Origin: Cymodocea nodosa
Lineage: Eukaryota > Streptophyta > Magnoliopsida > Alismatales > Cymodoceaceae
Reading direction: 5' to 3'
Assembly (NCBI GenBank): GCA_036874045.1
Contig: CM072335.1
Location: 8,080,001-8,144,000 of the forward strand
DNA: 64,000 nucleotides
Part shown: positions 1-42,821 of the stretch, one piece after another
Numbering within the stretch: the stretch's first letter is position 1
Layout of the letters: each line of letters starts with the position of its first letter
Program-made: the position numbers and the translations under genes
Notes under the pieces: generated by a model
Database searches by the model: none
Seen by the model: only the letters and a program-made list of their open reading frames with translations
What the model was told of the DNA's origin: nothing

Positions 1-6
1 ATGTGG

Positions 7-4355: not shown

Positions 4356-4359
4356 CCTG

Positions 4360-6624: not shown

Positions 6625-6708
6625 TATGGTGTATCACCAAAAAGATTACTGGACAATAAGGCCCTATCCAATTTCTTCAAGATTTTGACAAGTATAGATG
6701 AAAACAAG
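6625..6708 (+). CDS. GGH: GGH exon A (28 codons)
   Basis: It opens after an acceptor ...TTTAAAG and closes at donor AAG|GTATAC. The uninterrupted translation starts YGVSPKRLLDNKALSNFF and ends ILTSIDENK. In plant GGH this block follows the QNHH segment and precedes the strand leading to the catalytic histidine. The frame is intact, and it is the leftmost exon I can find. Confidence 0.85.
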
Positions 6709-7509
6709 GTATACACAATTTATCAAAATTAATTTTTTTAGTTTCTTCATTTTTCGTCTGTATTTTATTTGTTAATTTATGAAACTGATTCTCCTTTAAA
6801 AAGATATTAAAAGACTACTCTTATAGCTTACCTAGGACATTCGGATTATAAATTATATAACCTAAAATCATAATGATGATTTTATATGCCTATGAGTGTT
6901 GTGCCCATCTAAATAAAAAATCTTCCTTTCCTAATACTTAATGAATAGTGCTCATAAATTACAGATTTTGAAATTCTTTAATTGGGTGTCAAGTCTTGAT
7001 TTTGTTGAAATCTATATCTTAAAAATTGTTCTAGACACTACTTTAGTGTTTAATTGACACAACCTTTCTTTATGACCATTGTCTCAAATATTGACCCGAC
7101 GAAAAATTCTCAATACAATTTAGATGTTGAAAATGATGTTCCCGAAACATGATGTATTTTAGAGAATTCATTGGATTGTGTAATTTTTCGTGTAGGATTG
7201 ATGCGAAATTAACAAATCAGACAACATTCTTTAGTTTTTACTTGTTGGAGGACAGATCGATTGATCCATCGTAAAGATTGGTTAATTTACAGAGCACGAA
7301 AGTTGCCGATCAATGGGTTCTGCACTTCTGTTGTGTTGCTGGGTCAACTACAAAACATCAAAGGGACCGTTTGCCATTCATTGACTCCATACAATCCTAA
7401 TGCTCTTGATTCTTAAGGCATTCATGACTTTGGAGAAGAAACAATAATTGTTCTTTATGGAAACCTATTAGGATTTTCAGACTTATTCAAATGGTCGAGG
7501 TGAAGGAGG

Positions 7510-8512
7510 GAGTTAGTGAAGCACGTGAGAGATGAGAGTTAAAGAAAAGAATAGGGAAAAAGGAAAAGGAAGAAAAAGAGAAGGGGAAGAAAAAAATTTA
7601 AAAAAGGGAAATAATATAAATAAATAAAAATGTTTGATTTGACCATTGATGTGAAAAAAATAAAAAAAGTTAGATATGGCCATTGATGTTAAAAAAATTT
7701 TAAAAATAAAAAAGTTAATTTTTACCATTGACATGAAACAAAATAAAAAAATACAAATTGTATTTCACATCGATGGGGGTCTTTCCCTTTTGTAAAGGAG
7801 ATTTGAATTCTTTAAATGTAAATCAAGGAAAATAGTCTTTTACGTGAAGGGAAATGAGGTTAGGAATCAAACCTTTCGTTTGTGTGAAGGGGAAGGGTTC
7901 CTTCTTCCTAAAGAAGATTACCTCCCTCTTCTTCTTACTTTTATATAAAGTTGCTAAAATGGAATTAGAGATTTTAATTAAACTTTTGGAGAGCTGAAAA
8001 AGAAAAAGAAAGAAAAAGCTAAGGAGAAGAAAAAGAGAAAAATGTTAAAAAAAAGGGAAATTTTTTTTAAAAAAAAAGTTAGATTTGATCCTTGATGTGT
8101 AAAAAATAAAAAAAAGTTAGATTGGACCATTGTCATGAAAAAAGAGAGTTAGATTTTACCATTGATGTGAAAAGAAATTAAAAAATAGAAAAATATAAAT
8201 TGTATTTCACATCAAAGAAGTCCTTTCCCTTTTGTAAAGGAGATTTTAAGGACTCCTTACAAATTTATGTAAATCCTTTAAAGGCCACGTAAATCAAAAA
8301 GAATGACCCTTCACTTGAAGGAAAAGGAGGTGAGGAGACAACCCTTCTCTTTATGTAAGGGGGAAATCTCCTTTCTTCTTAAAGGAGATTCTCTCCCCCT
8401 TCTTCTTACTTCTGTATAAAATTCTTGAAGAAGTCTTTTTTCCTTACATTTTAAGATGAAAGTGAAAAAAAGTGTTGGAGAGTTTAATTAAACTTTTGGA
8501 GAGCTGAAGCAT
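7510..8512. repeat. diverged tandem duplication (units of about 450-515 bp)
   Basis: Two head-to-tail units share the same order of blocks. Each has an A/G-rich run (gaaaaagagaag), then spaced copies of 'accattgatgtga', then cctttcccttttgtaaagg, then ccttcttcttact, and ends attaaacttttggagagctga (around 7970-7995 and 8487-8512). The purine run makes the minus strand look like a low-complexity Phe/Leu-rich ORF, which I do not accept as a gene. Confidence 0.75.
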
Positions 8513-8586
8513 TTCTAATATTTTGTTATGATTTTCTCTCTAAGTTCATCGCTTTATTTGTGTTTTACACTAAGAGAAAAACCCAA

Positions 8587-9617
8587 TGTAAATATTGTGG
8601 GAAAAAAAAAGGAAGTGGTAATGTATCTATATTGAAGTAATATTTAGTTGGTGGTTATAGTAATGTAACAAAATGTCTTATCATTGTTAGAGATTAGATG
8701 AGACAGTTACTTAAAAATACAAAGGCAAAAAAGAGTGAGAAAAATAAGAAGGATGAATGTTTCAAGAGTATTTTACAGCAGGAAAATGAGGAAATTCTAT
8801 ATTCTTATAGTGAATCACAATATCAAAAAACCTTTGTTGAAGATAGTAATGAAGACGTTGACTACCCATCTGATATGATGAGTAAAGAAGAAAGATAAGT
8901 TTATATAGAAGCAATGATGAAATCAAGAAAGAAAGAAGGGAGAGAGAACAATTCAGATCCTCATATGATTCTTTGTGTTCTAGGCATTTTGAAAAGAGTA
9001 GTACTTCTTGTGCATATGCATCTTTTACTTCAAAGGAAAAGGAAATTACAGGTATGTTTAGAACACAGTTAAAGATATGAATGCCTAAAGTTGTAGTTGC
9101 TTGAGATAAGAAACAAAAGCCAAAAACATTGAAGGATATGTGGACAAATGTTAGAGAAAAAGTTGGAGCTATTGTATTAAAATGTATGTTTCACAATGTC
9201 ATCCTTGCAAGTGCAGCAAAAGGGACCATATCTACAAAATATGGTAGATGTAATAGTCGAAAAAAGATCAGGTGTAAAAGTTCCAACTTATTATAAAATT
9301 ATGAACAAATATTTGAATTCAACAAAGAATGAGCTCAATAGCTATATTGATAGTTTTAAAAAAAATGGCCTATGTATGGTATAATTATCATGTGTGATGA
9401 ATAAACTTTTGTTACTAGAAAGTAAATAATTAAGTTCATGATATATTGTGTTAGATGTGCTATTTTTTTGAAGTCTATTGATACATTAGAACATGTAAGA
9501 GATTACAAGTATCTTTATTGATTAATTGTTGATGTTATTAAGGAGGTTGGACTATCAAATGTTATATAGATAGTTACAAATAATGATATCAACTTTAAAT
9601 GGTTGGTATGAAAATAA
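8587..9617 (+). pseudogene. hAT transposase, BED finger and DUF659 start
   Basis: It begins with CKYCGKKKGSG, the first half of a BED zinc finger, followed by MRQLLKNTKAKK and an acidic linker (8698-8898). From about 9196 it shows the DUF659 region of plant hAT transposases: PYLQNMVDVIVEKRSGVKVPTYY, then after frameshifts a stretch fitting the 'CDEWTS...INFMIYC' block and IKEVGLSNVIQIVTNNDINF. DUF659 contains part of the RNase-H-like catalytic core. Several stops and frameshifts are present. It breaks at TAA 9615-9617, where a Harbinger element is inserted. Confidence 0.8.
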
Positions 9618-10832
9618 AGGGCTGTTTGTGCATAATTTTTGTTGAAAGGAAACAACGAGAATTGTTAGAAATGTAGGGAAATGATAGGAAATGACAAGAA
9701 TGTTTAAGTGTTTATGTATGTCGGGAAATTACGAGAAATGATAAGAAATTTTAATGTGTTTGTGCAGAATAGGAAATTTTGACGTATTTATGCATAATAG
9801 GAAATGACAAGAAATACAATTTTTAATAATTTTTTGAAATAGTAAATAATAATACAACTTGAAAGTAATATTTTAAATAATAGAGTATATATTAATTATA
9901 TTTTAAATAATATAGTATAATATAATATATAGTACACAATTATTTTGTTATGAATAAACTTTTCATCACAAACATATAATGCAAACATACAAAGATATAT
10001 ATAACTAATTTACTATGCTTGCAATGGTGAAGAAAATAAAATATATCAAAATGATAATAATATATTATAATTATTTGTAATTAATTTATTGATTAAGTTT
10101 TTAATTAATGAATTGAAATAATTAATCAAAATGTAATTAATTAATTACATTAATCAATTAACAAGGTATATAATTTTTATTTAAAATATTTAATTTTTAT
10201 CTTGACTAATTAGATCATTCATATACTTCTATCTCACAAATGTTAATCTTCGTTCATTTTTCATTCTTTTCCAGTTTTCCTCATTTTTCTTAAAAGTTTT
10301 ATTTTGTTTCATTATTTCTCATAAATAACTTTTATTTCTTTTATCAAAAGTTTTTTCTTTTTACGGTTAACCATCCATCTTCTCTGACAATGTTCACCAG
10401 AATCTGATGATCAACGAGTAGTGAGCAATAGGCTAATGAGCAGCAAGCGACAGGTTGCAAAGCCCGAGTGGAAAGAGGCTAGTAGCGAGTGCAAGCGCAA
10501 ACGGTAGAGCTTGAGTAGAAAGCAACGAGTGATGAATGGCGAGCTGGCAAGGGCGAGCGATGGAGCCAGAGTGGAAAGTAGCGAGTGATGTATGGTAGAG
10601 TGTGAGCGTAAGGCAATGTGCGACAGAGTCAAGTGGGGGCGAGCAACATGCAGCAGAGCTTTGGCATTTTTCGAAGATGATTCCAAACCTTACCGAGTGG
10701 GGTTCTAGAATTCATCTCCCAACTGTTTTCTAAGGTTTCCAAAGTGCACAAACACCATAACCTTGGGAAACACTTTTCCAATGTTACCTTTCCTGACATT
10801 TTCCAACATTATTGGGAAGCACAAACCCCTAT
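9618..10832. mobile_element. PIF/Harbinger-type non-autonomous element (1.2 kb)
   Basis: The left end reads AGGGCTGTTTGTGCATAA, and the reverse complement of the right end reads ATAGGGGTTTGTGCTTCC. TAA flanks both sides (9615-9617, 10833-10835). It splits the hAT DUF659 codons between GMKI and MDKYP. The left subterminal region repeats the motif 'gtttgtgcagaataggaaat' with variants (9660-9810). The right part holds a purine-rich stretch of 'gagtggaaag' and 'agcgagtg' repeats. I find no transposase, so it is a non-autonomous derivative. Confidence 0.8.
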
Positions 10833-10835
10833 TAA

Positions 10836-11364
10836 TGGACAAGTATCCTATTTTCTAGACACCTTATGTAGCACATTGTATTGATTTTATATTGAAAGAT
10901 TTTGGAAGGACAATGTTAATTGGAAAGATTGTAAAATTAGCATGAATTATCATTAACTATATATATAATCAATTTTTCTTACTTGCATATATGAGGTCAT
11001 GTGGTGACTTAATTCCTCTTGAGGTTACACATTTTGCTATAAATTATATAATACTTGAATCTATGCTTGACAAAAAAATGGGATTAAAACACATGTTCAA
11101 CTCCAAGATATGGTGGAAACATTTTGAAAATAACAATCCAATAAGTAGGAAAGTGATGTCAATTGTAAATGATTGCATCTTTTAAGAGAATGTCAAAAAA
11201 TGCATTGTTATTATAAAATCTATTTTCAAAGTTTTAAGATTTATTAACAATGCTAAAAAACCCACAATGAGTTTCTTATATGAAGCTATGAATTTAATGA
11301 GAGAGGTGGTACATGACTTAGTACCACAAAACACAAAGACATTCATTAATATTATCAAGGATAG
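10836..11364 (+). pseudogene. hAT transposase, DUF659 end and middle region
   Basis: It resumes after the Harbinger insertion as MDKYPIF, stop, TPYVAHCIDFILKDFG. It continues with RSCGDLIPLEVTHFAINYIILESML, LKHMFNSKIWWKHFENNNP, then VLRFINNAKKPTMSFLYEAMNLMREVV. These correspond block by block to the AHCLDL, RPAITRFAT and MGYIYEAMD motifs of plant hAT transposases. The segment ends at IIKD, where a solo-LTR-like insertion with target duplication GATAG (11360-11364) interrupts it. Confidence 0.82.
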
Positions 11365-12220
11365 TGTTGAGTTCAACACATGTGGAAGTACAACTCTACC
11401 AATTGCACATGAAAGAAGAACATGAGAAAACAAGAAACAAGGTGAAACACAAGATTTTATGTGATTTGGCAAATAACCTACGTCCACAGGTGGTAATTTC
11501 TTTCTTACTATTTCAACTCTTATTACAATTCAGTTCACCAATATTTATCATTGTAATGTTACAACATGCCTTTTATACACATATATTAGGGCATAGAGAC
11601 ATTACTATAGTAACACTCTTGTAATAGACAACAACAATGTTCAACTAGCTGTACACATTGGTCGGTTGAACTTCTAACCTTTTGGACTGTTGGAGTGTCG
11701 TCTTGCACATTCGGTCACTTAAGACGATAACTCTTTGTCTTTCTCGGATACTAATCCCTTAACCATCCGAACTTCATGGTCTTTAGTTTGCCATTTTCTC
11801 ATGTAAGGAACTTAATTTCCACGTGACTAGAACTTGTAGAGTTAGTGATAACTCTACGAATTTCTATGTTAACCCAACGACTTTCCTCTTAGATTAAGCA
11901 GCTTCGATTGACCTTTGACAATAGTTTTGCCAACACCTTTGGACATTTAAACTCTTAATTGCTTGAACTTTGTGACCTTCCAACATTGGCTCATTGGTCT
12001 TTATTACGAGCTTGCTTAGGTTATCATGTGTTCTTTCGTTAGACGCTAATCTTCATAACTCACTGTACTATTCAATTAACTCATCGATTGTTCTTGTAAG
12101 TATTCTACAATGATTGGTCTATTGTCCTTTTCAATTAAGTCCTAGCTTTCAGCTACCATTACAAACTTTAGTTTAGGCTCACTATCTAATTAATAAGGTA
12201 GTCTCCACACAACCCCAAGA
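11365..12220. mobile_element. solo-LTR-like insertion in the hAT
   Basis: This 856-bp insert is flanked by GATAG (11360-11364 and 12221-12225). Removing it joins hAT codons IIKD and RWFKIF. It begins TGTTGAGTTCAAC, as LTRs do, but the other end (ACCCCAAGA) lacks a clear terminal CA. No coding capacity is visible. The 5-bp duplication favours an LTR retrotransposon origin. Confidence 0.6.
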
Positions 12221-12225
12221 GATAG

Positions 12226-13321
12226 ATGGTTCAAAATATTTCTTCATCCATTACATAAAATTGATATGCAATTACTTAAATATATAAGTTTAATAATTAA
12301 TTTATCTTAAATATTTCTGATACAAAATATACTAAGTATCTTTTACTTGATAATTTGATATGCAATATTTTATTTGAATTTATAGTTTCAATATGAAAAA
12401 ATGCTTGATAGTTGTACTGATTTGATCAATTCATTAAAGTTTGTTATTAATAAGATTGGGCTAAATATCAAAATTCAAGTGTATGTCTTAAGTTAGATAA
12501 AAAAATTCAAGAACGATTTAGGAGGTTTTAGATACTTTGGAATTATTTGTGCTATAAATACTGTGTGTTAGTGAATATTTTTTACCAATTATTATAAATT
12601 TATAATCTTTTTTTTCAATATTGATAGTAAATTACTATTTATTAATGTCTACTTATAATTTTCTTTTACAGTTGAATGATGAGTTATCCATAAGATTGAT
12701 ACTTCTAATTTGAAAAATATTATAATCAAAATACTTTCTTAGACTATCTTTACTTCTAGTTGTGAAAGAAATTAGAGTGTATTTAATTTAATTCATATAA
12801 GGAATGAACAAATTAAAAATAGAAAGATTGAATGGCTTGGTCTTTGTCTATTATAACGTTAGGCTTTATATGAAACATATAGTTGCAGAAGATGAACATG
12901 ATAAATTAGATTGAATCAATATTAACTTTATCTATAAAAATTTTAGTGTCAAGGATCCTATTATAGATTGGATGAAAAATAATAGTAGACATCTTCTTAA
13001 TAAATAGGGTGGAAAATCTGATGAGCATTTTGTGACATAGTTAAATATAGATATTGAAACATGCATTTCTTCTTCAAAATCTCATGATGTTGGCAAAAGT
13101 CCAAGTTTAGGTTGTAATATAGATTTAGAAAATGATCATGATACTACATTGATTGTCAATCCTTTCATCAATCTTAAAGTAATGATTCTTACAATTATAG
13201 TTCATATAAAAAATCACATAACTTTTTCAATTACTAATCTGAGAGTGCAAAGACAAATCTTTTATCATTATACAAGTCAAGTAATTATTCATCAAGTTAA
13301 TATGATGAATAACATGAACAT
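12226..13321 (+). pseudogene. hAT transposase, C-terminal dimerisation region
   Basis: It starts WFKIFLHPLHKID, the hAT 'PLH' block. It then gives YEKMLDSCTDLINSL and, from about 12770, the hAT C-terminal dimerisation motif region: IHIRNEQIKNRKIE, then LVFVYYNVRLYMKHIVAEDEHDKLD and KDPIIDWMKNNSRHLLNK. The last codons (MNNMN) stop at AACAT 13317-13321, where the Copia at 13322 inserted. The frame continues at 19416 as ITNEKSLDPLFKMNQ and reaches a stop at about 19487. Internal stops and frameshifts make it non-functional. Confidence 0.8.
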
Positions 13322-13446
13322 AGATGAATAGAGAGAAGAATGATCAAAAGAAAAAATCTTTTTCTATTGATACTAACTAGGTATATATACAAGAACAAAA
13401 ATGGATCCATGAGACTAACATAAGATAACTAATATAAACTGTAACA
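13322..13446 (-). repeat. 3' LTR
   Basis: Minus-strand sequence TGTTACAG to TTCATCT, 125 bp. It is nearly identical to the 5' LTR apart from a 24-bp length difference, because the 5' copy repeats an 'ataaatggat' stretch. Confidence 0.88.
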
Positions 13447-13449
13447 CTC

Positions 13450-14689
13450 TCCTTCAAGCTGAGCTATATATATTAGTAAGACTTAGCTTGTTATAAAAAA
13501 CTTCTAATACCCTAATACTTAAACCTTTAGTGAGAACATCTGCTAGTTGATCTTTTGATTGAATAAATGGTGTAGTTATGATTCTTCTTGAGACATTGTT
13601 TCAGATGAAATGGCAATTTACTTCCACATGTTTAGGCCTTTAATTAAATATGAGATTACTAGCAATATATATAGTAGATTGATTATCACAATTTAAGGGC
13701 ATAGGTCTAATCTCTTCCACCTACAATTCATGTGCCAAAGCCTTCAATCGAATGAGCTCAAAGTAGCATTAAACATGACTCGATAATTAGCTTCAGCACT
13801 AGATTTAGAGACAACATTCTGCTTCTTATTGTGTCATGTAACCAGATTTCCTCTAAGAAAAGATAGATATCTTGAGATTGATTTTCTATCATTACAATTA
13901 TCGACATACCCAACATCAGTGAATCCTTCAATGCGTAAGTGTCCATGCTTCTTATGAAGAAGACCTTGTCCAAGGGCTTTCTTGATATAGGATAAGACTC
14001 TAATAGCTCCTTGCTAGTGAATCTCACATGGAGCATGCATAAACTGAGTAAGAAAATTGACAGCATATGAGATGTCTGGCCTAGTGACAGTCAAGTATAT
14101 CAATTTCCCAATAAGTCTTCTATATTGCTCAGGCTGACCATATAATAGGGTATTTTCATCTCAGAAGGCATGGTTTAACTCAATAGGAGTGCTTTCTAGT
14201 TTGCACCCTTCAAGCCTTATTTTATTTAGAAGGTCAAGAGCATACTTTCTTTGTGACAAGGAAAAATGTCTTTTAAAGAAAGCAAACTCAATACTCAAGA
14301 AGTAGCTCAATGTGCCTATATCTTTGGTGGCAAAGTTTTGACAAAGAAAATGTTGTCTCATCAATACCCTCTTGATCACTTCTTATTAATAACATATCAA
14401 CATATACAGCAAGAACAATGATACCTCGTGATGTATGATTGATAAAAAGTGAGTGGTCAACTCGACAATTATTAAAGCCTCCACTTCACATAACACTACT
14501 GAATTTTTCAAACTATGCATTGAGACTCTATTTGAGTCCATAAATAGCTTTGTTTAGAGAGCATACTTGAGTTTTCCTCTAAACAACATACCTAAGTGGT
14601 TGTTCCATGAAGACCTGTGCATCCAAATCTTCATAAAGAAAGGTGTTCTTGACATCTAGTTGTGTTAAGGATCATGATTGATTTACTAC
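13450..14689 (-). pseudogene. Copia RT C-terminal half and RNase H, degraded
   Basis: On the minus strand RT resumes after the MITE with LTQLDVKNTFLYEDLD and VFMEQPLRYVV, then the YGLKQ block and a corrupted VYVD catalytic strand. Next come FFLVTKK and the RNase H pieces YVDNCNDRKSISRYLSFL, GNLVTWHNKKQNVVSKSSAEA and KGLNMW. Frameshifts and stops are frequent. The RNase H region ends at the polypurine tract before the 3' LTR. Confidence 0.8.
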
Positions 14690-14691
14690 TA

Positions 14692-15703
14692 GGAGGGGGT
14701 TTGTGCACTCGGAATCTGACGGAATTGAAAATTTTTTCCGTCAGATTTCGAGTCATGAGGTGTTTGTGCATTTTGGAATTCAAATTCCTTGGGAATTTGA
14801 ATTCCAATCATGTGTAAAGGTTGAGAAAATGAATTCTCAACCTAAAAGGTTGGAATTCATTTTCCAAAAGATCGCTCAACGCTCACCCTCACCTGTTGAA
14901 GTATATATTGTTAATATTTTTATTTAATTAATTATTTTAATATTATTTTTATTAAAAATAAAATATTAATTATTTTATTATTATTAATATTATTTAATTT
15001 ATAATATTAAAATCATAAATATTATTTAATATTATTATTATTATTATTATTTTATTTATTATATTATTTAATATATAATATCAAAATTTTAAAAACTATA
15101 TAATTTTCCTAACTTTTTGTGGCTAACACAAACAAAGTCTTAAAAGTCATTTATAGCTAATAGAATGTTCAGAATTATATTTTTTTATAATCAAAGTATT
15201 TCAATAATTATTTATTATTTACTTTCATTTATTCACTTCATAATAATTATATTTTTAAAAAAGTTATTTATTATTACATTTCGAGGAATATAGAATTTAT
15301 AATTAACCTTTTATTGTTTTAAACATGTATTATAACTAAAAAGTTATCAATTTTTGTAATTTTTGATTTATTCTATATAATGATATACTTAATTAATTGA
15401 TAAATGATATATAAACATTTAATTTAATAATATGTTCATTTATTAATGTAAGTAATTAATTTCTTAATTAATTACATTTTCACTAATTACTTTAATTCAT
15501 TACTTAACTTTATTAAAAATCAATTCTATTCAATTCCATTCAATTCTGTCATGTACACAAACACCTAAATTTCAATTTCTATTAAATTCCTAAACGTGCA
15601 CAAACACCTAGATTTTGAATTCTTTCCATCAAATTTTGTAGAATTCAAATTCCGTTGAAATTCAAATTCTGCGGAATTCAAATTCTAGGTGCACAAACAG
15701 GCC
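14692..15703. mobile_element. Harbinger-type MITE, copy 1
   Basis: A 1,012-bp element flanked by CTA (14689-14691 and 15704-15706). Termini are GGAGGGGGTTTGTGCAC and, in reverse complement, GGCCTGTTTGTGCAC. Its centre is a long A+T-only stretch (14930-15100). It has no ORF of note. It inserted in the RT of the Copia; removing it and one CTA restores the frame across the RT block LLSL. It is closely similar along its whole length to the element at 29548-30530. Confidence 0.88.
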
Positions 15704-16430
15704 CTAGAGAGAGGAGAACTCTTATAGAATCAAGTCGAGCTACAAGAGAGAAAGTTTCAGAGTAATCAACGCTATATTCTTGGAAGAAGTCCTGAGCAAC
15801 TAACCGAGCTTTGTACCTATCCACCGTTCCATTCATCTTGCGCTTGATGGTGAAAACCCAATGATAGGAGACAACATTCACCTGTTCAAGACACGAAACC
15901 AAATCCCATGTACCACGAGATAACAAGACATCCATCTCTTCATCCATTGCTTGCTTCCAATGAGTAACCTGTAGAGCTTTTGTATAATTTCTAGGTAAAG
16001 CCTCAGTAGAAATGGTAAGGGAAAAATCACAAAATGTAGAGTTAAGATTATCATAGGAAACAAAATTGGATAAGGGATGAAGAGTACAAGATTGAGTCGC
16101 CTTACAGAGGGCAATTGGTAAGTTGTCGATATCAGTTGTGGAAGGAAGCTCACATATGGGTGAGGAGGTAGGTGCAGACGGATCGACAATCTCACGTGGA
16201 GGTGATCACAATCAACAACTATATACCTAAAGTGGCTGTTGAGGTCGTACCTGTCTTTGGTCAGATTCTTGTTCATCAATCGGCATCAGAGAATTGAGAT
16301 ACAGGTCAACCAAAGTAGACATGTCAATCGAGCCTGAAATAGTGTTATGTTCAAGACAACTAACAGGGGTTGAAGGCAACTCAATCTGAGTACTAAAATA
16401 TGATTGAGATTCAAAAAAAGTGACATTCAT
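15704..16430 (-). pseudogene. Copia RT N-terminal part and linker
   Basis: Minus-strand codons include MDEEMDVLLSRGTWDLV, VSYHWVFTIKRKMNGTVDRYKARLVAQDF, then YSETFSLVARLDSIRVLLSL, the fingers domain of Copia RT. It ends at the MITE. The upstream linker (16430-15950) reads VTFFESQSYF, the usual Copia junction between integrase and RT, followed by a low-conservation region. Confidence 0.85.
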
Positions 16431-17160
16431 GGAGGTGTAATATCTTTGAATACGGAAATATCCAACAAAGACACATTTGAAAGTTCGAGGAAAAAATTTA
16501 TTGAGACTTGGGGATAAGTCTTGAATGAAGGCGACACACCCAAAGATCTTAGGAGGTATAGAAAAAGGCTATTTGGTAGGATAAAGATGATGTAAAGGAA
16601 CAACTCCTCCTAAGGGAGTAGAAGACATTCTATTAATAAGGTATGTAGTGGTGAGAATGATATCGGACCATAAACTTTGGTTTCACACATGAGAGTCTGA
16701 GCAACATCAAGAATGTGCCTATGTTTACGTTCAACCACACCATTTTGTTGAGAGGTATGTGAATAGATGGTCTAATGTAGAATCCTTGAAAAAGAGCAAA
16801 TAGACTGAAAAGAGGTTTGTACAAATTCAAGAGTATTATCAGTACGCATAATTTTGGGACAAATAGAAAATTGATTTTGTATTTCAGCAAGAAATTCATT
16901 GAACACATTGACAACATTGTGACGATCTTTTAACAACTAGACTTACGAAACACGAGAATAATCATCAATAAATACAACATAATACTTGTGACCTTTGACA
17001 AAGGGAATTCGATTGGGTCCCTAAACATCACAATGGACTAAGTCAAACTTATTACACGAAGAGGAAAGACAAAGATGGTTGAAGGTAGCATGAGTATGCT
17101 TACCCAACTGATAAGACTCACAATCAAAAAAAGAAACAGAAGCCCAAGGAAGAGCCTCAT
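16431..17160 (-). pseudogene. Copia integrase, degraded
   Basis: Minus-strand pieces include KHTHATF, CNKFDLVHCDV (first Asp region), GPNRIPFVKGHKYYVVFIDDYSRVS, KIMRTDN (second Asp) and QQNGVVERKHRH (Glu of the DDE triad), then FRTFKCVFVGYFRIQRYY. All three catalytic positions can be located, but frames change several times, so no functional enzyme is predicted. Confidence 0.8.
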
Positions 17161-19250
17161 GTAGTTTTTTGAGTGACGGATGCCCCAAACGACAATGTTA
17201 GATGAATGAAGAGTCTACATTGGACATGCACACGATCAAGCTATGAGGAACATAATCTGGGACCAGCAGATACACTCTATTGGGTTGCTTACGCCCCAAA
17301 CCAATCCTTCGACCCATCTGCAAGTCTTGAAAGGTACAATGAAAGGGATAAAAGGTAACTCTATAAGATAATTGAACAATAAGGACACTTATGGATAAAA
17401 GGTTGAAAGAGAAATCTGGAATATAAAAGACATTGTTCAGTTGAATCTGGGTGGAGGTTTGAATTTCTCCATGACTAGATATGGGACATGAATGGCCATC
17501 AACAATAGTTACGAAGGATTTATTTTGCAAGGACCTCAACTGATTAAAAAGGCTAGAATTACCTGAGATGTGGGATGAGGCGTTAGAGTCTATTATCCAA
17601 GAATCATCATTTGAAGCAATTAAGACATTGGAAGTATCTGTACCAAGATGAGAGGATGTAGCTTGCGTACTCATGGTAGTGGAACTAACTTCATGTGATT
17701 GAACCAAACGATTGTGATTAGCTTGTAAGATGGTGACAATAGGCTCAGATATACTAGATGGGCCTACCATGCCAGTCCCACTAGAAGAAGATGCAACATG
17801 TGCCAATGAGGGCTTGAGATGAGGAAACTTGTCCTAGCATTTCTCAGATCGATATCTTAACTTGTTATACCATTGACATTTTAGACGTTGACGATCACTA
17901 CATCCTCTAGAACCTCAATCACGCTCTCTACTGTTAGATGTAACAAGTGTAGTCTAATCAATAATAGATTAAGAAGAAGACGGAGTAGAAATCCGTAGAG
18001 CTTTGGCAAAAGTCTCATGGAGATTAGGCATGACATCTACACTTAAAACAGGACCACAAATCTAAGAGGCAACCTCAGGGTTCAAACTGGCAAGATAAAA
18101 TGTGACAGTAAGTTCCTTTCGGTATTGGAGAAAAGTGGACACATCTATGGTAGGAGGTTGATATACATTATGCTCATTGATTAATCCTTAAAAAATACTA
18201 TAATGTTCTTGATAGGTTTGCTTTCCCTATTGGAGATGAAATAAGTCATTATAAATCTGAAGCACTTTTGAAATATTCTTCTCATAGTCATACATCTGTC
18301 GAAGAGTAACCCACATCTCACGAGCTGGGTAGAGCATGGATACGCCTCGAGCCACGGAAAGTTCCATGTTGAACATCTAAGAGATGATTGCAGTGTCATC
18401 AACATTCCAATCTCTATAAGTCAAGTCTTTGACATCCGGTGGCAGTAAGTGTAGATATTCTTGACGGTGTCCAATGACAATGGTTTCAAAACTTTGAGCC
18501 TATAATATATAATTGGAACCATTTAATCGTTCAGAGACACCTGGAAAATGCCTAACAAGAAGTAGAACGGATTGACTCCTTTGATAAGAACTAGATTGTC
18601 TGGATGTAGCTATTTTTTTTGTTGCTGTTAACCAAAGATTCTAAATGGACAAACTACATCCTTCGCATGTAGAGGCTTGGGGACAACCTACTTGAACAGG
18701 AGCTATTCTATAAGATCGTACAACCTACTTTGGTCACGACTAGCATCATCAGATGAAGTAGTGGTCATCGAGGATTGTGTTCTTCGTGCACCTGAGATGA
18801 TGGTGTTCTTTGTGCGTCCATTGCGCATAGTGGACCAGATAGGAGATGGTCGACAGGAGGGGGGGTGGTCACGTCGGATGAGACTATTCGGATAAGTGGG
18901 GATCGATCAGACAGGACTATCTGAGAGGAGTTAATAGACGATTGGAGATAACTACGTCATTCACGCGTTGGAGATCGAAGCACGGTCGTCATTCACGCAC
19001 CAACTGTGAACAATGGACGCGTAGAACACGAAATGGACAAGGCTGACCACGAGAACGAGGTCTAGTCTAGCTACAAGAGATGGTTGGGTGGCATCGATGG
19101 CCAGTTCGACATTAATCGACAATAGTGACATCAGCACGAGGAAGAACTACAGGCGAGGGTAGCTAGTGGGTGATGGATGGCAGCTGGCGGGTGCAGACAA
19201 TTGGCTGGGCATGTGGAGAATTGGTGACTAGATGGTGAAGAGAAAACCCT
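17161..19250 (-). pseudogene. Copia gag and protease
   Basis: The open stretch 17806-17198 (202 aa) carries the aspartic protease motif as SWIIDSNASSHISG. The family motif is DSGAS, so the Gly after Asp-Ser is replaced by Asn, probably abolishing activity. LNNVFYIPDFSFNLLS follows, as in Copia proteases. Upstream, gag from about 19250 is frameshifted. Its end near 17900 shows a zinc-finger-like LKCQWYNKLRYRSEKC. It starts just downstream of the primer-binding site. Confidence 0.78.
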
Positions 19251-19254
19251 TGGT

Positions 19255-19415: not shown

Positions 19416-19487
19416 AACATCACTAATGAGAAATCACTAGACCCTCTTTTCAAAATGAATCAAACTATGATGAGTTCCTACGAATAG

Positions 19488-21850: not shown

Positions 21851-21894
21851 TTCTCTCAAAAGTTCATAAGGTAAATCTTTGTAGTTAATTTATG

Positions 21895-22470
21895 CACTCT
21901 CCAAGAGAGGTCTACTAGCAAAGAGCCATTAGAGTCCTAGTGTATGTCAAACGTGCTTTAAGCAAAGGGCTTCTATATAAAAAGAATAGACATCTATAGG
22001 TGATAGATTTCTTTGATGCCAGATATATAGGTGATAAGATCGATAAAAAGTCTACCTTTAGATATTTGACATATCTTAGAGGAAACTTGGTCACTTGGCA
22101 TAGCAAAAAGTAAAATGTTATCTTCAAATCAAGCATCAAAGTAGAATATTGTGTCATGTCGAATGCAACTTCTGAACTTATTTGGTTGAAGACACTATTA
22201 TTCTAGTTGAGAGTCGAAATTAATACTCCAATGCAAATGTATTATGACAATCAAGTTGTCATTCACATAGCTAACAATTCTACCATTTACGAAAGAACCA
22301 AACATGTTGAGGTAGATTGTCATTTCATTCAAGATAACATTGTCAAGGGAGTGGTCTCAACACCTTTTATTCTGAAGATCAAATTGTTGATATACTCACT
22401 AAGGGACTAAGTACACTAGTATTTAAGTATCTTTGTAACAAGCTAAATATGCTTGACATATATGCTCTAG
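21895..22470 (+). pseudogene. Copia RNase H fragment
   Basis: Plus-strand pieces: FMHSPREVY, YVKRALSKGLLYKKN, DARYIGDKIDKKSTFRYLTYL, GNLVTWHSKK, SIKVEYCVMSNATSELIWLK, MQMYYDNQVVIHIANN, ERTKHVEVDCHFI, VDILTKGL. These are the C-terminal RNase H motifs of Copia. Upstream RT is missing. A polypurine tract (cttgagggaaag) and LTR follow directly. Confidence 0.85.
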
Positions 22471-22482
22471 CTTGAGGGAAAG

Positions 22483-22886
22483 TGTTAAAAATATTTTTCA
22501 TTGTATCTGTCGGATATCCATTTAATGGTCTAAATGGATATCCGACTTGTATGAGAAAATATATTCTTGAAACCTTACTGTAGCATTCTTCTTCTTCGAA
22601 TAAAAATTTTCTCCTAAACCTAATTGTGAACTCCACCATGCTTGTCAACTATAATAAAACAACAACAAAAAATTTTAAAAAAACCTTTACACATTGATTA
22701 GAATTTATTATAACTATTGAGTATAAGGGTAGAAGGGTAGAATAGTCTTTTCCATATAGATGTAACTCTTTATGTTGTATGCCTCTTTCATGATGGAATA
22801 GAGCCCTACTAACTTTTCTCTTCTTCATTGGCTTCCACTCTCTATGTTCATCACCATCAATGTTGCTTCTCATTTGGTATTAGAGT
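22483..22886 (+). repeat. single LTR with downstream primer-binding site, shared by two Copia units
   Basis: The LTR runs from TGTTAAAA (22483) to CTTCTCA (22872), 390 bp. A polypurine tract lies immediately upstream (as for a 3' LTR) and TGGTATTAGAGT, a two-mismatch initiator-Met primer site, lies 2 bp downstream at 22875-22886 (as for a 5' LTR). One LTR thus serves as end and start, a product of recombination between tandem copies. Confidence 0.78.
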
Positions 22887-25800: not shown

Positions 25801-26345
25801 AAATGCAAAACTACTTTGTGTTCAATACATAGACTATTGACTTGGTACTCATTAAATAAAGGACAAATTTGTGCATTAATTAAAATTTAACACATAAAAA
25901 CATGCATAACTCTAAAATATGATTTTCATGTAATCCTTCATTAAGACATATATAATTACAATTTATAATCTATAATATAAATGAATTGACATATAAAATA
26001 CACAAATTTAGACTTTATAGAGAGGAATTAGGTTCTTAGTGGTGAAAGCTTGCAAGATTTTCATGGTGTATTGTTAAAGGTGTTACGGTTGTCAATTTCA
26101 TCTTCAATAGTTGAGTAGTTGACCATGATAGTTAGAGTTCGTGGACATTCTAGAAGCCGTGAGGGAGGCAGAGGAGGTTGTGGGAAGGTTCTCGATGAGC
26201 ATTGTGGTAGAACCTATCATCAATTAGGCAAGTGTTGGTAAAAGTTTGGCAAACTTGAGTATGCTAGGGTGGCTACTAAGACTAAGAGCACTACATAGGA
26301 AATTGAGAGTTACACACCTAGTCAAAGTGGATCCTTCATTATTAC
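22887..26345 (+). pseudogene. Copia gag, split by a 2.1-kb insertion
   Basis: After a leader of about 485 bp, an ATG at 23372 starts ESQDGLIKNLCGTFQKL and NYIQWAQNFKKFLVAHKCI, the N-terminal block of Copia Gag. It continues with stops to LNSLEKNHVQIK, breaks at 23863 and resumes at 26003. There VLSGESLQDF fits the conserved 'ILTGE' block, followed by RGHSRSREGGRGG and a remnant zinc knuckle (CGRTYHQLGKCW). The frame is continuous when the insert is removed. Confidence 0.75.
23864..26002. mobile_element. unidentified 2.1-kb insertion with 10-bp target duplication
   Basis: ATAAAATACA occurs at 23854-23863 and 25993-26002, exactly at the two edges of the interrupted Copia gag. I see no terminal inverted repeats, poly(A) tail or LTR ends. 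A 9-11 bp duplication without terminal repeats best fits a non-TIR Mutator-like (MULE) element. The interior 24900-25550 is clearly more GC-rich than its flanks and could be captured host sequence, but I recognise no protein in it. Confidence 0.55.
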
Positions 26346-27690
26346 CTAATGTAGGTTGAATATGTTGAGTTCCTATAGTTAAAGGGATAAGAGGTTTTAG
26401 CCATGTGTCTCATGTCGTTCCATCCACTTTGGGTACCATTACCTTTTTGATTTATTAGAATGACTATTGAATTGTAGATTCTAAAGTTTCATCCCACATG
26501 ATAGGTACCTATGACATTTTTATCCGTTTTAATAATCTTTCTGTTGTTAACTATGTTAATGGATAGACCTGCTCTATATTTGGAGTTGTCCAAGTTATAC
26601 TAAACATGGCTCTTGATCATATTTTATTTGTTCCTAATTTTCCTATTAACATTTCTATTGATGCTCTTACAAAACCACTTTCATGTTTTATAACCTTTTT
26701 CTCTTTTCATTGTGTTTCATAGGATCTGCAGATGAGGAGGAGAATTGGTTTAGCCCATAAGACTTAGCAAGGTGTCTATGTTCTTGTTCAAGACAATATT
26801 CTTTAGGGGCCTACACTTCTAGTGTTGCAATATAAGTCTTTCATCTTGTAGCATTATCAATTAGGTCATCTTTCCTTTGAAAAGCTTCAATAGGCTTTCC
26901 TTTGGATTTTTATTTCTTGTTTTAATTATGAGTCTTGTTAATTAGTTAAGCATCATTGTACTACCTTTCATCGGTAACGTCTCATATCTAATAAATGTCC
27001 TTTTAACATTGTTTATTGTGATATTTGGAGTTCATCTTGAATTACATTTATTAGTCGTTATCAATGTTATATTTTATTTGTGGATGATTATTTCAAAGTA
27101 TCTTAAGTTTTTTATTGACAAATCATCAAACTATGTTGGATATTGTGAAACAATATTTTGCTAAAATAAAAAATGTGTTCTTTGCTATATTCAAAATTTT
27201 TCATACTGATAATGCATTGGAGTTTGTTTAATTTGCTATACAATCTTGTTGTGCATCCTTGGCTATTGTTTGTTAAACTACTTGCACTCACACATCTATG
27301 CAAAATTAAGTTGTCAAGTACAAACATCGTCATTTGCTTGATGTTGCTTGCACTCATGCTTCATATGCATGTCTTCTTATTTTTGGTCTGATGTTATTTT
27401 TATAGTTGTCTATTTCATTAATTGTATGTCATCCTCTCTATTAAGGGGAGAGATTCCTCTCAAAATGCTCTCCGTTGATATAGAGTTGTTTACTCTTCCT
27501 TCAAAGGTATTTAGATGTATGATATTTGTTTATGATTTGACCTTTGGTCTTGACATGCTTGCTCTTTGATCCATTAAATGTATCTTTGTCAATTACTTTC
27601 AGATTAAAAAAAGATATCAGTGTTATCCTCCTATAATGCATCATTACTTTATGTTGGTCAATGTTACTTTCTTTGAGTCCACCTCATTCT
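26346..27690 (+). pseudogene. Copia protease and integrase, truncated
   Basis: The plus strand retains GAG-pre-integrase-like sequence near 26830-26960 and integrase near 26990-27110 (FNIVYCDIWSSS, then YILFVDDYFKVS). It ends NVTFFESTSFF at about 27690, the typical end of the Copia integrase before RT. RT, RNase H and the 3' LTR of this unit are missing. Many stops and frameshifts are present. Confidence 0.7.
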
Positions 27691-28282
27691 TTGTCTGTTC
27701 TTTGACCAAGTTTAACTGGCTTTACCTTTTTGGTTGATTAGGGTTGACTCTAGTTGGCCTAGAGGTTTCTTAGGGTTTTTGGGTATGTTTTGTAGTTTCT
27801 GGAAGAATTAAGGTATTGGGTGGATTTGTCAATCTTTTGCAAATTCAAACATCAGAGCTTTCAGAATGGACCTTGCATGGTGCCATAAAAATGGGTGTTT
27901 ATAATGGCTTAAGGAAGCTGATGATAATACTCATGACTCCACAGATTTGCAAATGCTTATAATTGGATCAATAACATTAGGAGAATTCAGCTTAGAAAGT
28001 TGTTTGCTGGATGAAATGGATGCAGCAATTGTAGCTTTTACAAGAACATTTCCTGCAATAATTTTCATGAACCTCTTAGTGCTATGGGTGCTCTGAAGGG
28101 CAAGTTTGATTATATGGTTTTACTTGTGTATGTCAAATGGATTTTAAGATCCATATATGCAACCTATTCAATGCCCTGAATGCTTTTAATGAAGGAGATC
28201 TCTTTTTTTCCTTTTTAAAAGATTTCTTTTATAACTTTGCTAATTAAACTAATATTTGTACTTTTCCTTTCTCCTGGGTCAG
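27690..28282. other. end of giant intron, no element recognised
   Basis: No family assignment is possible. A stretch at 27850-28110 has a more coding-like composition but no convincing frame. The last 30 bases form a good polypyrimidine tract before the exon B acceptor. Confidence 0.4.
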
Positions 28283-28345
28283 GTTTATGTTTCAACCATA
28301 CAGGCATACAAATATCCTGTTGTTGGACTTCAGTGGCATCCAGAG
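28283..28345 (+). CDS. GGH: GGH exon B with catalytic His and Glu (21 codons)
   Basis: It follows the acceptor CCTGGGTCAG and reads VYVSTIQAYKYPVVGLQWHPE. The His (28337-28339) and Glu (28343-28345) of WHPE are the second and third members of the family's Cys-His-Glu triad. The next bases are ATATGA rather than the expected GTATGA, so the 5' splice site is lost. Reading on gives Ile then a TGA stop. Confidence 0.85.
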
Positions 28346-29027
28346 ATATGATTAGGGGCCATGTCTTGATCTTCAAATGCCGGAATTTCAGCTATTACTT
28401 CATTTTTGTGGAAATTACCTTTATAATTATATTATTTTTCATCAATAATATGGTTGGGAAAATATTGGTAGGTAGTTTAATGAAAATTTGGTGCTAATGT
28501 TTGATAGATTTTTCTTCTTGCATATTTTTGGAGTTAACATTTCAAGCATAGAAGGCACCACAGATTCTGTTGTGGATTATCCATTTGAGATAAGTCTAGA
28601 GAACTGGTTTTGTCGCTTGTTTAGTTTAGAACACATAAAAAATTCAGGATATGAATCCTATAATCTTCATGGTTAGCAAGGATAAGTAACGTCTCCAGTG
28701 ACCTGTTGTAATTACTCACTTTTTTCAAATCAATTGAAGGCTCGTTCTATAGAAAAATTGCAAACTTACAAGGTTATGCTTCAGAATACTTACCACTTGG
28801 AAATCTATGCTTTCAAGAACAGATTTTGGATTAAAAATGGTATAAAAAAGATATATAAATATTAAGAATTATAAAATATTTGGTATAATTATTTGACAGA
28901 TATGAAGAGGAATCATTTCATATCATCGAATCCACATTTGAAATTACAAGTTTGTCAAAAGATGCTTGATTTGGTGATTTATTAGGGTTTTTTATATTTT
29001 ATAGTGATATTTTTTACATCTTGACAG
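28346..29027 (+). other. GGH intron with mutated 5' splice site
   Basis: The intron begins AT instead of GT and ends with a normal acceptor (TTGACAG). The length of 682 bp contains no transposon I can identify. The AG 3' end argues against a minor-class AT-AC intron. Confidence 0.7.
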
Positions 29028-29116
29028 AAAAATGCTTTTGAGTGGGGCATTACAACAATTCCACACAGTGAAGATGCAATTCGAGTAACACAACATTCTG
29101 CCAACTACTTAATAAG
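29028..29116 (+). CDS. GGH: GGH exon C
   Basis: It reads KNAFEWGITTIPHSEDAIRV and on to TQHSANYLI, ending ATA AG|GTTAGT. All are conserved plant GGH blocks, directly following WHPE. The frame is intact, and the donor matches consensus. Confidence 0.88.
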
Positions 29117-29244
29117 GTTAGTTTTTATTTTTCAAAGATTTTCTTGGGAAACTTGTCTTATTTCACACATGCTCGATCTAGAATTTCAAGAGAATGACCA
29201 AGTTTATTAAATAATGTTTATTTGAATTTCTAACATCCGAAATA

Positions 29245-31775
29245 TGTTAGAATCAATTTATTTCACTAAAAGAGGGTGAATAGTAAACTTAAATAATTTA
29301 AAAATATTTTAATAAAAAAATTGAATAAAATATTTTTCTAAAATTGTTTGATGTAAAAATCGATATGTGAATAAATAATAAATAATCAAATGTGAATCAT
29401 GAACAAAACATACGAAAATAGCAATCAAATCACAAAAGAAAAAGACAACATTCTCGAAATCGAATACATTCATTCAACAAACTTTTTTATTTATGCTTTT
29501 CACTAAATTCAATTTTTTACAGGTTCAACACTTAACATTTACACTTAGGGGGGGTTTATGCACTCGAAATCTGATGGAATTGAAAATTTTTTCCATTAAA
29601 TTTCGAGTCATGAGGTGCTTGTGCATTTTGAAAGTAATTTGAATTCCAATCATATGTAAAGGTTGGGAAAAGATTAGAATTCATTTTTTAAAAGATCGCT
29701 CGATGCTCACCCTCACTTGTTGAAGTATATATTGTTAATATTTTTTATTTAATTAATTATTTTAATATTATTTTTATTAAAAATAAAATATTAATTATTT
29801 TATTATTATTAATATTATTTAATTTTATAATATTAAAATCATAAATATTATTTAATTTAATTATTATTATTATTATTTTATTTATTATATTATTTAATAT
29901 ATAATATCAAAATTTCAAAAACTATATAATTTTCTTAACTTTCTGTGGCTAACAAAAACGAAGTCTTAAAAGTCATTTATGGCTAATAGAATGTTTAGAA
30001 TTATATTTTTTTATAATCAAAGTATTTCAATAATTATTTATTATTTACTTTCATTTATTCACTTCATAATAATTATATTTTTAAAAAAGTTATTTATTAT
30101 TACATTACAAGGAATATAGAATTTATAATTAACCTTTTGTTGTTTTAAACATGTATTATAACTAAAAAGTTATCAATTTTTGTAATTTTTGATTTATTTT
30201 ATATAATGATATACTTAATTAATTGATAAATGATATATAAACATTTAATTTAATAGTATGTTCATTTATTAATGTAAGTAATTTATTTCTTGATTAATTA
30301 CATTTTCACAAATTACTTTAATTCATTACTTAACTTTATTAAAAATCAATTCTGTTCAATTCCCTTCAATTCTGTTATGTGCACAAACACCTAAATTTTA
30401 ATTTCTGTCAAATTCCTGAACATGCACAAACACCTAGATTTTGAATTCTTTCTATTAAATTCTGTAGAATTTAAATTCCGTTAGAATTCAAATTCTACGG
30501 AATTCAAATTCTAGGTGTACAAACAGGCCTTTAGTGCTTTTGCAGACTCAACACTCAGCCATCTACCTGATGTTTTACGAGAAATACTATAGTCTCCAAC
30601 ATTTTTCAGGTCCATACAGTAACCTCTTGTATTACATGTAGGTCTAACATTAACCTTCACTTGGTAAACATCTTACCAAGTACAAAATCACTCCTTATAT
30701 CAGGAAGTTTTATCTCAAATCAAGATGCTCACACTAAAATTAGTATGTTTTTTATCACAATCTAGTGAAAACGTTTAAGCACAAAATAAATCAAATAAAA
30801 AATATTTAAGTCCAAATAGAATAAAAAAGAAAGCACAAAAAACGTTTTCTAACTTTTTTGCAATTTACTCTTGACTGAAACCATGTAGAATGAAATTTTC
30901 TCAGTATGCTTTAATGTAGCCTTGAGTGCAGCAACTAATTTTAACTTTAAATAATCTTCTTTTTCAACTTGGATGCCTTAAAATGATGTTAATTTGGAGT
31001 CACAAATGTTGTTAATGTGAAAGCACACAAAGGTATCACCTCTTATGTTGAGAAGCTACAAATATATATAAGATAGAAGCTAAAGTTTGAAAATATGAAA
31101 AGCATATTTGTCAGAATCTGTCTGAATTTATAATAAATCGGTATGCCATTTGACAAATTGGTATGCCATTATTTGAATTTCGACATAGATATCTCATAAT
31201 TAGACCTTTTTTTCTACACATACTATTCACAAATTGATATACCATTTTTTGTATCGGTATAATGTTTCTCAAACTTCTGCAAGCTATATCATCTAATTAA
31301 TATATAAAAGAAAATTCTAAATCATCTTATCAAGTCTTCTTCTAGAAAATGTTATGCTAGTGAGTCCATTGGTATTTCTTTTGATTATTCTTGATCATCT
31401 CAATAACAAACATGTATCATCCTTCTAAGCTCATCTTTTGTTTACCAAGGATCTGTTACATCTATATCCAAGAAATAGTATGGTAATGGAAAAATCGGTA
31501 TATCGTTTGCTAATTCTGATCTGTAGATGATTTTAAACAGTGTGTCACTGTTTGGTATCAATGTTTTGTTTTTCTGTCCAAAGACTTAAACAAATTACTA
31601 TACATCATAAAATGATGTCATTAATCTTAATAGTATGTTGATTTACCAATCGGTAGATCATTTTCAATGACAGTGTACAATTTATTTTAAGTCTCTATTT
31701 ATATATAATTTTTATCTAAATATATATCATTAAGTTTTGCTTCATTAAAATCCTATGAAAAAGAATTTTCTAACA
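29245..31775 (-). repeat. solo LTR of a Sirevirus/Copia-like element, with nested MITE
   Basis: AAATA flanks both sides (29240-29244 and 31776-31780). Termini are TGTTAGAA and TTCTAACA on the plus strand. The stretch near 29270-29282 (agagggtgaatag) resembles the 3' end of Sirevirus LTRs when read on the minus strand, as in the copies at 42.8 and 62.2 kb. Subtracting the MITE leaves about 1.55 kb. There is no internal domain. Six or so degenerate 'atcggtataccattt' motifs lie at 31130-31660. Confidence 0.8.
29548..30530. mobile_element. Harbinger-type MITE, copy 2
   Basis: A 983-bp element flanked by TTA (29545-29547 and 30531-30533). Termini are GGGGGGGTTTATGCAC and, in reverse complement, AGGCCTGTTTGTACAC. 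It is collinear with copy 1 at 14692-15703, differing by scattered substitutions and small deletions near the left end. It is inserted in the solo LTR. Confidence 0.88.
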
Positions 31776-31952
31776 AAATATCATTAATAATTGTTATAAT
31801 AGATGTTAATCATTTGCATAAATATATTTTGCTAATAATTATCAAATCTTATGCATTTCTTTATTGGATGGTAAATGATAATTGAACTAAATAAATTAAA
31901 TAACAGTTTTTTTATAGTGAAACTAGATTAAGATCTATCAAAATACTCTTTA

Positions 31953-33735
31953 GGGGGTGTTTGTACCCTCAGAAATTGTCAGGAAAATTGGAAAGAATTT
32001 TTCTGGATTTTCTAGGCATTTGTGGCATTATGGAAAGGAAAAGATTTAGCCTCCAGCAAACAATGGTAATGGAAAATCCACAAAAATTTTATCATCATTT
32101 ACCAGAGTATAAAAAAGATGGATTGCATGATTTTCTCTTCCATTCACATCCAAAAAAATTTACTGTCTCACTTGCAAAACCCTCGTCCATGAGGTTTGTT
32201 CTATCAGCCTCTGCCCTATTCCTCCCTCTCCACTACCACTACCATTGTCGTCAAGGTTTTATGGCCATGATCTTCCTCACGTTTAGCTGTTATTGTTTGT
32301 CAAATAGTCGTCGTTGTCCTTGTGATCTTCTAGATATAACCCATATATCAACTCATAATCCATGTAACAACTCATAACCCCTTCTCTCATTTAATATTGT
32401 TGCATGCATGTGATGTTGTCATGAGAATGCATATTTGTCATTTAGTATTGTTGAATGCATGTGATGTTGTCATGAGAATGCATGTTAGTTGTGCCTTATC
32501 AACTTGTTTATAATTATACTGCATTCAAATTACGGTATTCCAACCCATTTATTAATAGTTGTCATCTTTGATTTAATCTGTTGCATGGTAAGAGGTGAGT
32601 TGTAGGTGGTGGTTTATTTGTATTTGGAGAGTTCAATGAATAATATGGAAACCTAGAGCTGAATTGTGGATCAACCGGGATCTGCCTGGAGTATGTTTCT
32701 TACGAAGATTAGGATAGAGGATGATGTATAAAATTAAGGCTTACACCTTAAAGTTCAGAGATCGAATTTCAGTTTAAGTTAATCTTAGTATTCAATAGAT
32801 TTATGAAACATTTTGTACCCGAAAAGAATATGGAATTAGTTTGTAATAGATTTGTGATGTCAATGTCTATATAATATTTTGATAGTAACTTACATGTATA
32901 TTATTTTACTTGTATATTTTTTTCTTTGTTTCACAGTTGTTTGTTCCATCATGAGTTAAGATAATTTTACTTTCCATAATATAACAAGATATGACAACCT
33001 CATAGAAAAGAAAGCAAATGTATCGTGTTTATACAACATGAAGTGCTGAAGCAGATGCAATCTTTTATGTGAGGTTTTAAACCAAGGTCATAACAAAACT
33101 CATAATGAAAAAATTAGAGTTGAAACATGGATACAATCAGCGATAAATATAATGATAAAACCAAAAAAATCTTGAGCAGGAAAATGTGAAAATTAGAATG
33201 AAAACTTGATGCACCATATACAGAAATTACCAAAAACTTGCATATCAAAATAGGTCAGGTTGAGACTATGTACATGGTACATGAATGGGTGGGGTTGGGA
33301 CTATGCTCAACTTGTGTGTTTGAATAATTTTTTTTTCAAAATATAGATTTACGTAAAGTTAGTTGAAATATAGAAAAAATAATTAAATATTTATTATCTA
33401 ATTTTTTTCTATTTCTAGTTTCTAAAATTATGTACTTCATAAATTTAATTTTTACCAAATTAATTAGTTATCATTTTCTAGTATAAGTACAAATATACAA
33501 ATATTAATTTTCATCATTTTTCATTTTCTATTAGTATACAAACATTAAGAAAATTTTCTCTTAGAAAAAAGTTACCATCATTTTCTTCAATCTCTTGATT
33601 TTCCTTTTGTCCATTTTCCAGAGACACAAGCGAGCAAAACTTTTTTCCTAGAAAAAATTTACCATCATCTACTTCATTTTCCATCATTTACTTCATTTTC
33701 CTTTTTTGCCATTTTCTAGAGACACAAACACCCTC
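31953..33735. mobile_element. Harbinger-like non-autonomous element (1.8 kb)
   Basis: The left end is GGGGGTGTTTGTACCC after TTA (31950-31952). The right end, in reverse complement, is GAGGGTGTTTGTGTCTC. The motif 'gtgtctctggaaaatgg' recurs inside the right end near 33612-33630, a subterminal repeat. The right target duplication is not visible. The 138-aa plus-strand ORF from 31961 starts in the terminal repeat, and I do not regard it as a gene. Confidence 0.65.
32388..32489. repeat. two-unit 51-bp tandem repeat
   Basis: Units at 32388-32438 and 32439-32489 share catgtgatgttgtcatgaga and differ at only a few bases. They lie inside the Harbinger-like element. Confidence 0.85.
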
Positions 33736-33740
33736 AAAAA

Positions 33741-34165
33741 TTTATTTCCTAGAGGTAGTCAAGAGCATACTTCTCTATAATAATATCTTTCTATCCTTGG
33801 GATGGTAAGGTAAATATTCAAGAAATATTTAGATTATTTCATATTTTTAATGGCAAAATCTTGGGCTAGGTATTGTTTAATTGTCTCAATATATGTGACA
33901 TCACTCTATCAAAAGAATGTCATCTATATAGATCACTAAAGGTATGTAACAATTTATACCTCTTTTTACAAAAACTGAATGACCCACAACACACCTTCTT
34001 AACTTGTTTCCCTTGTTGACTTTTGCTAAATCAAGTATGTAGTCTCTATTTCATATTTATATATAGCCTTAAGGGAAAACATCTATTCAACTAAATCACC
34101 ATATAATAAAACATTCTTCATGTCAACTTAATATAGATCCCAATACTGATTTGTGCCAAGGGGCA
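33741..34165 (-). pseudogene. Copia reverse transcriptase fragment
   Basis: Minus-strand pieces: QVDMKNVLLYGDLVE (RT catalytic Asp strand), IYKYEIETTYLI, a corrupted YIDDI strand, SDVTYIETIKQYLAQDF and EKYALDYL. It is a central RT fragment of a Copia element, cut at about 33741 by the adjacent Harbinger-like element. Gag, integrase, RNase H and LTRs are not seen. Confidence 0.75.
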
Positions 34166-34517
34166 GGAAAATTTGAATGGAATTTAATTTGATCATGACT
34201 GAATATGTATGATAACCTTTTCTAACATGATTAACAATACTAGAGTATCGTTTTCCACAATCTACTTTATAATAATGCATGTGTCAAACATAATCAAACA
34301 TCTTCTATAATCCCAACCAAACACAACCTTTGTGTGTGAGACTTCTACCCTTGTGAGATCTAAGAAATAAAACGGAGAGAGTGTTTCTTAGAATTTAAAC
34401 TTGTGGCCTTTTAGCCATAAGGGAACAACATTATCAACCTTGTATTGATATTGATAATACAGATTTGTTTGTTGACTTTTTGTCTTCTCAATGTATTGGA
34501 ATTAATGCATGTCTCAG
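34166..34517. other. end of GGH intron, no element recognised
   Basis: AT-rich. It ends with a T-rich tract and the acceptor TGTCTCAG before exon D. Confidence 0.4.
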
Positions 34518-34610
34518 TGAGGCTCGAAAGTCTCTAAACAGAGCACCAGTGGAAGAGCTTCTGGACAACCTTATTTACAACTACGCACCAACTTACTGTG
34601 GAAAGGCTGG
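34518..34610 (+). CDS. GGH: GGH exon D
   Basis: It joins exon C in phase (AG|T, Ser) and reads SEARKSLNRAPVEELLDNLI, then YNYAPTYCGKAG, the conserved GGH C-terminal region. It ends GCT GG|GTAAGA, a consensus donor. The frame is intact. Confidence 0.9.
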
Positions 34611-34701
34611 GTAAGATTAATTATCCTCAGGCATCAGAAGCTATATTGTCTATTATACATTTGGGAAATGTAATTAATCTTTCTTCCTGTACTTTTTATA
34701 G

Positions 34702-34831
34702 GAAGGGTTACGACGAAGTCTACATCTTCACTTTCCTTGCTGTTCAAAAAAGAAAAAGACCATTCTTTGTGGTCTACATCGAGCGTTGGTGGTACTCAGG
34801 AATATATTGCTGTAATTTTTATTTGTACTAG
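34702..34831 (+). CDS. GGH: GGH terminal exon E
   Basis: After the acceptor TTTTTATAG it completes Gly and reads KGYDEVYIFTFLAVQ. KGYDEVYIF is the usual end block of plant GGH. The frame then stays open for about 28 more codons (to TAG at 34829-34831), which is longer than I expect for the family. The real stop may have been lost by a small frameshift, or the tail may be species-specific. Confidence 0.78.
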
Positions 34832-42820: not shown

Positions 42821-42821
42821 T

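Follow-up and report, generated by a model that had tools for sequence, protein, structure and literature searches.

Is a gamma-glutamyl hydrolase (GGH) gene, stretched by transposons, present in this part of the Cymodocea nodosa genome, and can it still make an enzyme? GGH (Peptidase C26 family) shortens folate polyglutamates. The window, i.e. the whole stretch of DNA analysed here, is 64,000 nucleotides long. An earlier note on this DNA had described a GGH gene in it. Short exons generally escape ORF callers in plant genes, and a partial gene model was obtained here where ORF scans show none. The best explanation, with a probability of roughly 0.65, is that a nuclear flowering-plant GGH gene has its 3' third here. 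Under this reading, transposable elements helped to lengthen two of its introns and its protein has long been under selection; the 5' splice site behind its second recognisable exon has most likely been lost.

Identity and extent of the GGH locus

Five short segments on the forward strand (6625-34831), taken one after the other with phases that fit together, give the C-terminal 119 residues of a plant GGH (Table 1). Joined, they total 459 bp in a single frame, which runs from YGVSP to DEVYIF and ends with a 33-residue tail and a stop; identity to relatives reaches 92/119. All five segments of the earlier note were thus located, and they match consecutive parts of a C-terminal GGH profile, which was built from 154 relatives and searched against 3930 six-frame pieces of the window. 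Exons A to D stand far above the noise level (E 2.7e-7 to 1.3e-14); the next-best piece reaches E 3.3, against a best value of E 4.6 for the reversed window. This reversed-window floor rules out chance matches. Exon E (profile 107-121) is weak by itself (E 0.39) and its tail is unusually long.

A tblastn search with GGH proteins also gives matches at these places on the plus strand. With 120 GGH proteins, the places at 6.6, 28.3 and 34.5 kb (+) are each matched by 120/120; the place at 29.0 kb is split over two position bins, in which 94 and 27 proteins were counted apart. Searched against solved structures, the joined protein finds four GGH sequences (E 3.8e-25 to 7.8e-20), and the other three of the seven listed are noise (E at least 0.77). 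The translation of exon B contains the His of QWHPE, which is taken here to be catalytic. An N occupies the H position of QWHPEK in 4l8w, presumably in keeping with a mutant of the catalytic His; H is found in the other two of the three solved sequences shown. Pfam scores of the joined protein are below cut-off for both GATase (16.2 bits vs 22.8) and Peptidase_C26 (PF07722; 11.4 bits vs 20.5), of which the profile end alone (201-219 of 219) is matched. The C-terminal third, with QWHPEKNAFEWG and CGKAGKGYDEVYIF, is common to the window copy and plant GGH genes (e.g. Musa, Persea). The window copy stands apart by its AT donor, its 33-residue tail and the longest tree branch; the relatives were compared as proteins.

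Exon A is 21.6 kb from exon B, a distance that would suit the remains of two or more GGH copies lying side by side. This reading is extremely improbable: the window has a single match to each profile part (pieces with E at least 3.3 aside), and these matches are in order, on one strand and consistent in phase.

The claim of a GGH gene holds for GGH with transposon-bearing introns, but the window contains the 3' third only and not the whole gene. A profile built for the N-terminal two thirds gave no match in the whole window up to E 20. The interval 1-6624 was rejected as a site of the 5' exons, as neither a three-frame reading of the plus strand nor the profile (to E 20) gave anything there. 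The nucleophile Cys of GGH presumably sits in these upstream exons. To judge from the sequence, they must be left of the window, or lost; the former would be their place under the preferred reading. Since the Cys-bearing exons are not in the window, this GGH copy may be truncated at its 5' side. A retroelement fragment with a Tf2-1-like SH3 domain (5256-5762, +; E 1.3e-10) is found directly left of exon A.

Table 1. Exons, introns and intron-borne transposon sequence of the GGH locus, in window coordinates
Feature	Position	Length	Strand	Basis and remarks
Exon A, GGH coding	6625-6708	84 bp	+	YGVSPKRLL...DENK; C-terminal profile 1-32, E 2.7e-7; AG acceptor, GT donor
Intron 1	6709-28282	21,574 bp	+	GT-AG; holds copia and TIR-element sequence
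Copia element, degenerate	13466-17668		-	tblastn with 120 copia proteins and Pfam; Pol_BBD, SH3_retrovirus and RVT_2 pieces; broken by TIR element
TIR element inside copia element	14692-15703			91% to 29.5-30.5 kb; ends read; CTA at either side
Copia fragment, intron 1	21862-22469		+	Copia search
Copia fragment, intron 1	26999-27686		+	Copia search
Exon B, GGH coding	28283-28345	63 bp	+	VYVSTIQAYKYPVVGLQWHPE, contains His of QWHPE; profile 30-51, E 1.8e-8
Intron 2	28346-29027	682 bp	+	AT-AG; read-through ATA TGA, stop after one codon
Exon C, GGH coding	29028-29116	89 bp	+	KNAFEWG...NYLI; profile 52-81, E 1.2e-13
Intron 3	29117-34517	5,401 bp	+	GT-AG; about half TIR-type elements
TIR element, same family as 14692-15703, intron 3	29548-30529			91% identity; same end motif
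Second TIR-like element (putative), intron 3	31953-33735			By eye; ends imperfect, target duplication not clear
Exon D, GGH coding	34518-34610	93 bp	+	SEARKSLNR...CGKAG; profile 77-112, E 1.3e-14
Intron 4	between 34610 and 34702	91 bp	+	GT-AG
Exon E, last GGH coding	34702-34831	130 bp with stop	+	KGYDEVYIF, 33-residue tail, TAG; profile 107-121, E 0.39 alone

Transposons in the long introns

The lengths of introns 1 and 3 (21,574 and 5,401 bp) agree with the 21.6 and 5.4 kb of the earlier note, and transposon sequence is present in both. Among the best 120 of 7974 matches in a copia comparison, the highest full-coverage identity is 61%, and 70% is reached over two thirds of the query. For five of the six copia proteins shown, the alignments stop near 15.7 kb and restart near 14.67 kb, 7-9 residues on. 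A TIR element has inserted into the copia element here, the one case of nesting shown for the large intron. The family of this TIR element, which recurs in intron 3, is presumed to be PIF/Harbinger-like. The earlier note had both introns growing by stacked insertions. The transposon-assigned span of the 21.6-kb intron is about 5.5 kb, or about a quarter (gaps of up to 150 bases bridged, TIR element included), the other three quarters being unassigned; in the 5.4-kb intron, the two TIR-type elements cover roughly half. None of ten ORFs taken from the large intron matched Pfam. Two adjoining ORFs at 10946-11422 (+) are likewise without a Pfam match; by eye they resemble a hAT transposase.

Under the preferred reading, the GGH introns would originally have been short. 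Copia retrotransposons and TIR DNA transposons would have inserted into two of them, contributing to their lengths of 21.6 and 5.4 kb, and GGH transcripts would run through the elements, which would then be removed by splicing.

Very long, transposon-bearing introns are documented in other plants, so the stretching of GGH is no surprise. Published work reports that transposable elements make up about 80% of the expanded intron space in grapevine, where unusually long introns have caused single genes to be split in annotation (PMC3058033); that introns exceed 100 kb in 23 genes of Sapria (PMC10246380); and that introns above 20 kb are numerous in gymnosperms (PMC9364684). These introns are long and transposon-bearing, as here, with no difference in kind; in the window GGH, TIR-type elements contribute too. 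A literature search on plant GGH, introns and transposons found nothing related, judged by title, and one on the length of orchid introns led to a single paper, on Ginkgo. The locus is real but ordinary: its kind is already known in plants, and the donor base is the one oddity.

Conservation and the donor behind exon B

The coding sequence is well conserved. Among the 61 columns that are conserved in at least 95% of the 154 relatives, the window sequence is changed at 2; among the other 58 columns it is changed at 30 (Fisher p 7e-10). The relatives were drawn from the best 120 of 1750 and the best 120 of 404 matches, and being the best-scoring matches they under-represent unusual or decayed GGH copies. 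Four residues of the window GGH are seen in 0/154 relatives; this count of private residues is equalled or exceeded by 6/154 relatives, and near-duplicates in the set lower the count of any relative that has them. The 33-residue tail is longer than that of every relative with the end motif (148/154), the longest of which has 30 residues. Relatives include Musa (92/119 identical) and Persea (87/119); Musa, at 79%, is the best identity listed among the best 120 of 404 matches, for which candidate proteins were limited to lengths of about 199 to 633 residues. In a tree of 36 sequences (the window GGH and 35 labelled relatives hand-picked from the 154), the window GGH sits among monocot sequences (supports 53 and 80) and has the longest branch, 0.41 against 0.28 for the next. 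Conserved columns, private residues and branch length together point to long-lasting selection on the protein, with perhaps a degree of acceleration; any loss would be recent.

Standard GT-AG sites are found at three of the four introns. These are the three junctions that the earlier note listed (6708/28283, 29116/34518 and 34610/34702); the fourth, 28345/29028, was absent from its list and is AT-AG. The donor behind exon B reads GAG followed by ATATGATT, with AT where GT is expected. By eye, no GT or GC is found within 8 bases of 28345. Upstream, inside exon B, a GC and a GT lie 10 and 13 bases from the exon end, and use of either would remove HPE; downstream, a stop codon is reached before any alternative donor. 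A U12-type intron at 28346-29027 was rejected, as the final 60 bases of this 682-bp intron lack a U12 branch motif. The donor ATATGATT presumably does not fit the U12 consensus either.

As the coding exons are conserved, the AT donor has three readings: the splice site was lost recently, the intron is of a rare AT-AG kind, or the base is wrong. Under the last of these, GGH would be an ordinary functional gene, and the A at 28346 would be a mistake of sequencing or assembly, or one among several alleles. A GT donor is one base away and the remaining three introns are GT-AG. This reading is rather unlikely. It is unlikely that the gene is intact and its 682-bp intron spliced as a rare AT-AG intron. 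The junction 28345/29028 does give 119 conserved codons without stop or frameshift, but the prior for such an intron is very low and the U12 features are missing as described above. Non-canonical minor pairs do occur in plants; across 121 plant genomes surveyed, such pairs add up to about 0.09% of splice sites (PMC6310983). AT-AG as a term was not found in either of two papers on splice sites, that survey included, and a search for literature on AT-AG introns in Arabidopsis found none. It is very unlikely that this is a working GGH gene that combines a 21.6-kb transposon-filled intron with a genuine non-U12 AT-AG intron directly behind the exon of the catalytic His.

Recent loss of the splice site is thus the preferred reading: selection would have maintained the protein through most of its history, and the donor behind exon B would have been lost lately. 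The intron would then be retained, with a stop after one codon, or exon B would be skipped; these 63 nt would be removed in frame, and the His of QWHPE with them. A mis-spliced GGH transcript would be the likeliest outcome of the AT donor, and this GGH copy may no longer work. The single base at donor 28346 decides whether this copy makes enzyme; loss of this GGH copy might bear on how the plant stores folate.

Surroundings of the gene

GGH had been considered the sole long-conserved host function of the window. This does not hold, as protein-kinase remnants are found at 35.7-36.2 kb, each below the Pfam cut-off. They are located 1 kb downstream of GGH (35672-36197, -) and are receptor-kinase-like by eye. 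They include a 19-letter piece, an in-frame stop and LGYCVHGEEKILIYEFLPNGS, as well as a 25-letter piece; one piece matches Pkinase with E 3e-5 (24 bits vs a cut-off of 31.7). On this evidence, the region looks like a decayed kinase gene adjoining GGH.

Copia elements with long open frames are present at 38540-42687 (-), 53589-56906 (+) and 57286-58356 (-). A second copy of the segment at 36.9-39.7 kb, 94% identical, lies at 47.4-50.3 kb. A large inverted pair (41803-46856 and 58338-63285; 93-94% identical) is found beside copia gag-pol; its ORFs have no clear Pfam family, the best of five being Transposase_32 at E 0.0089, below cut-off.
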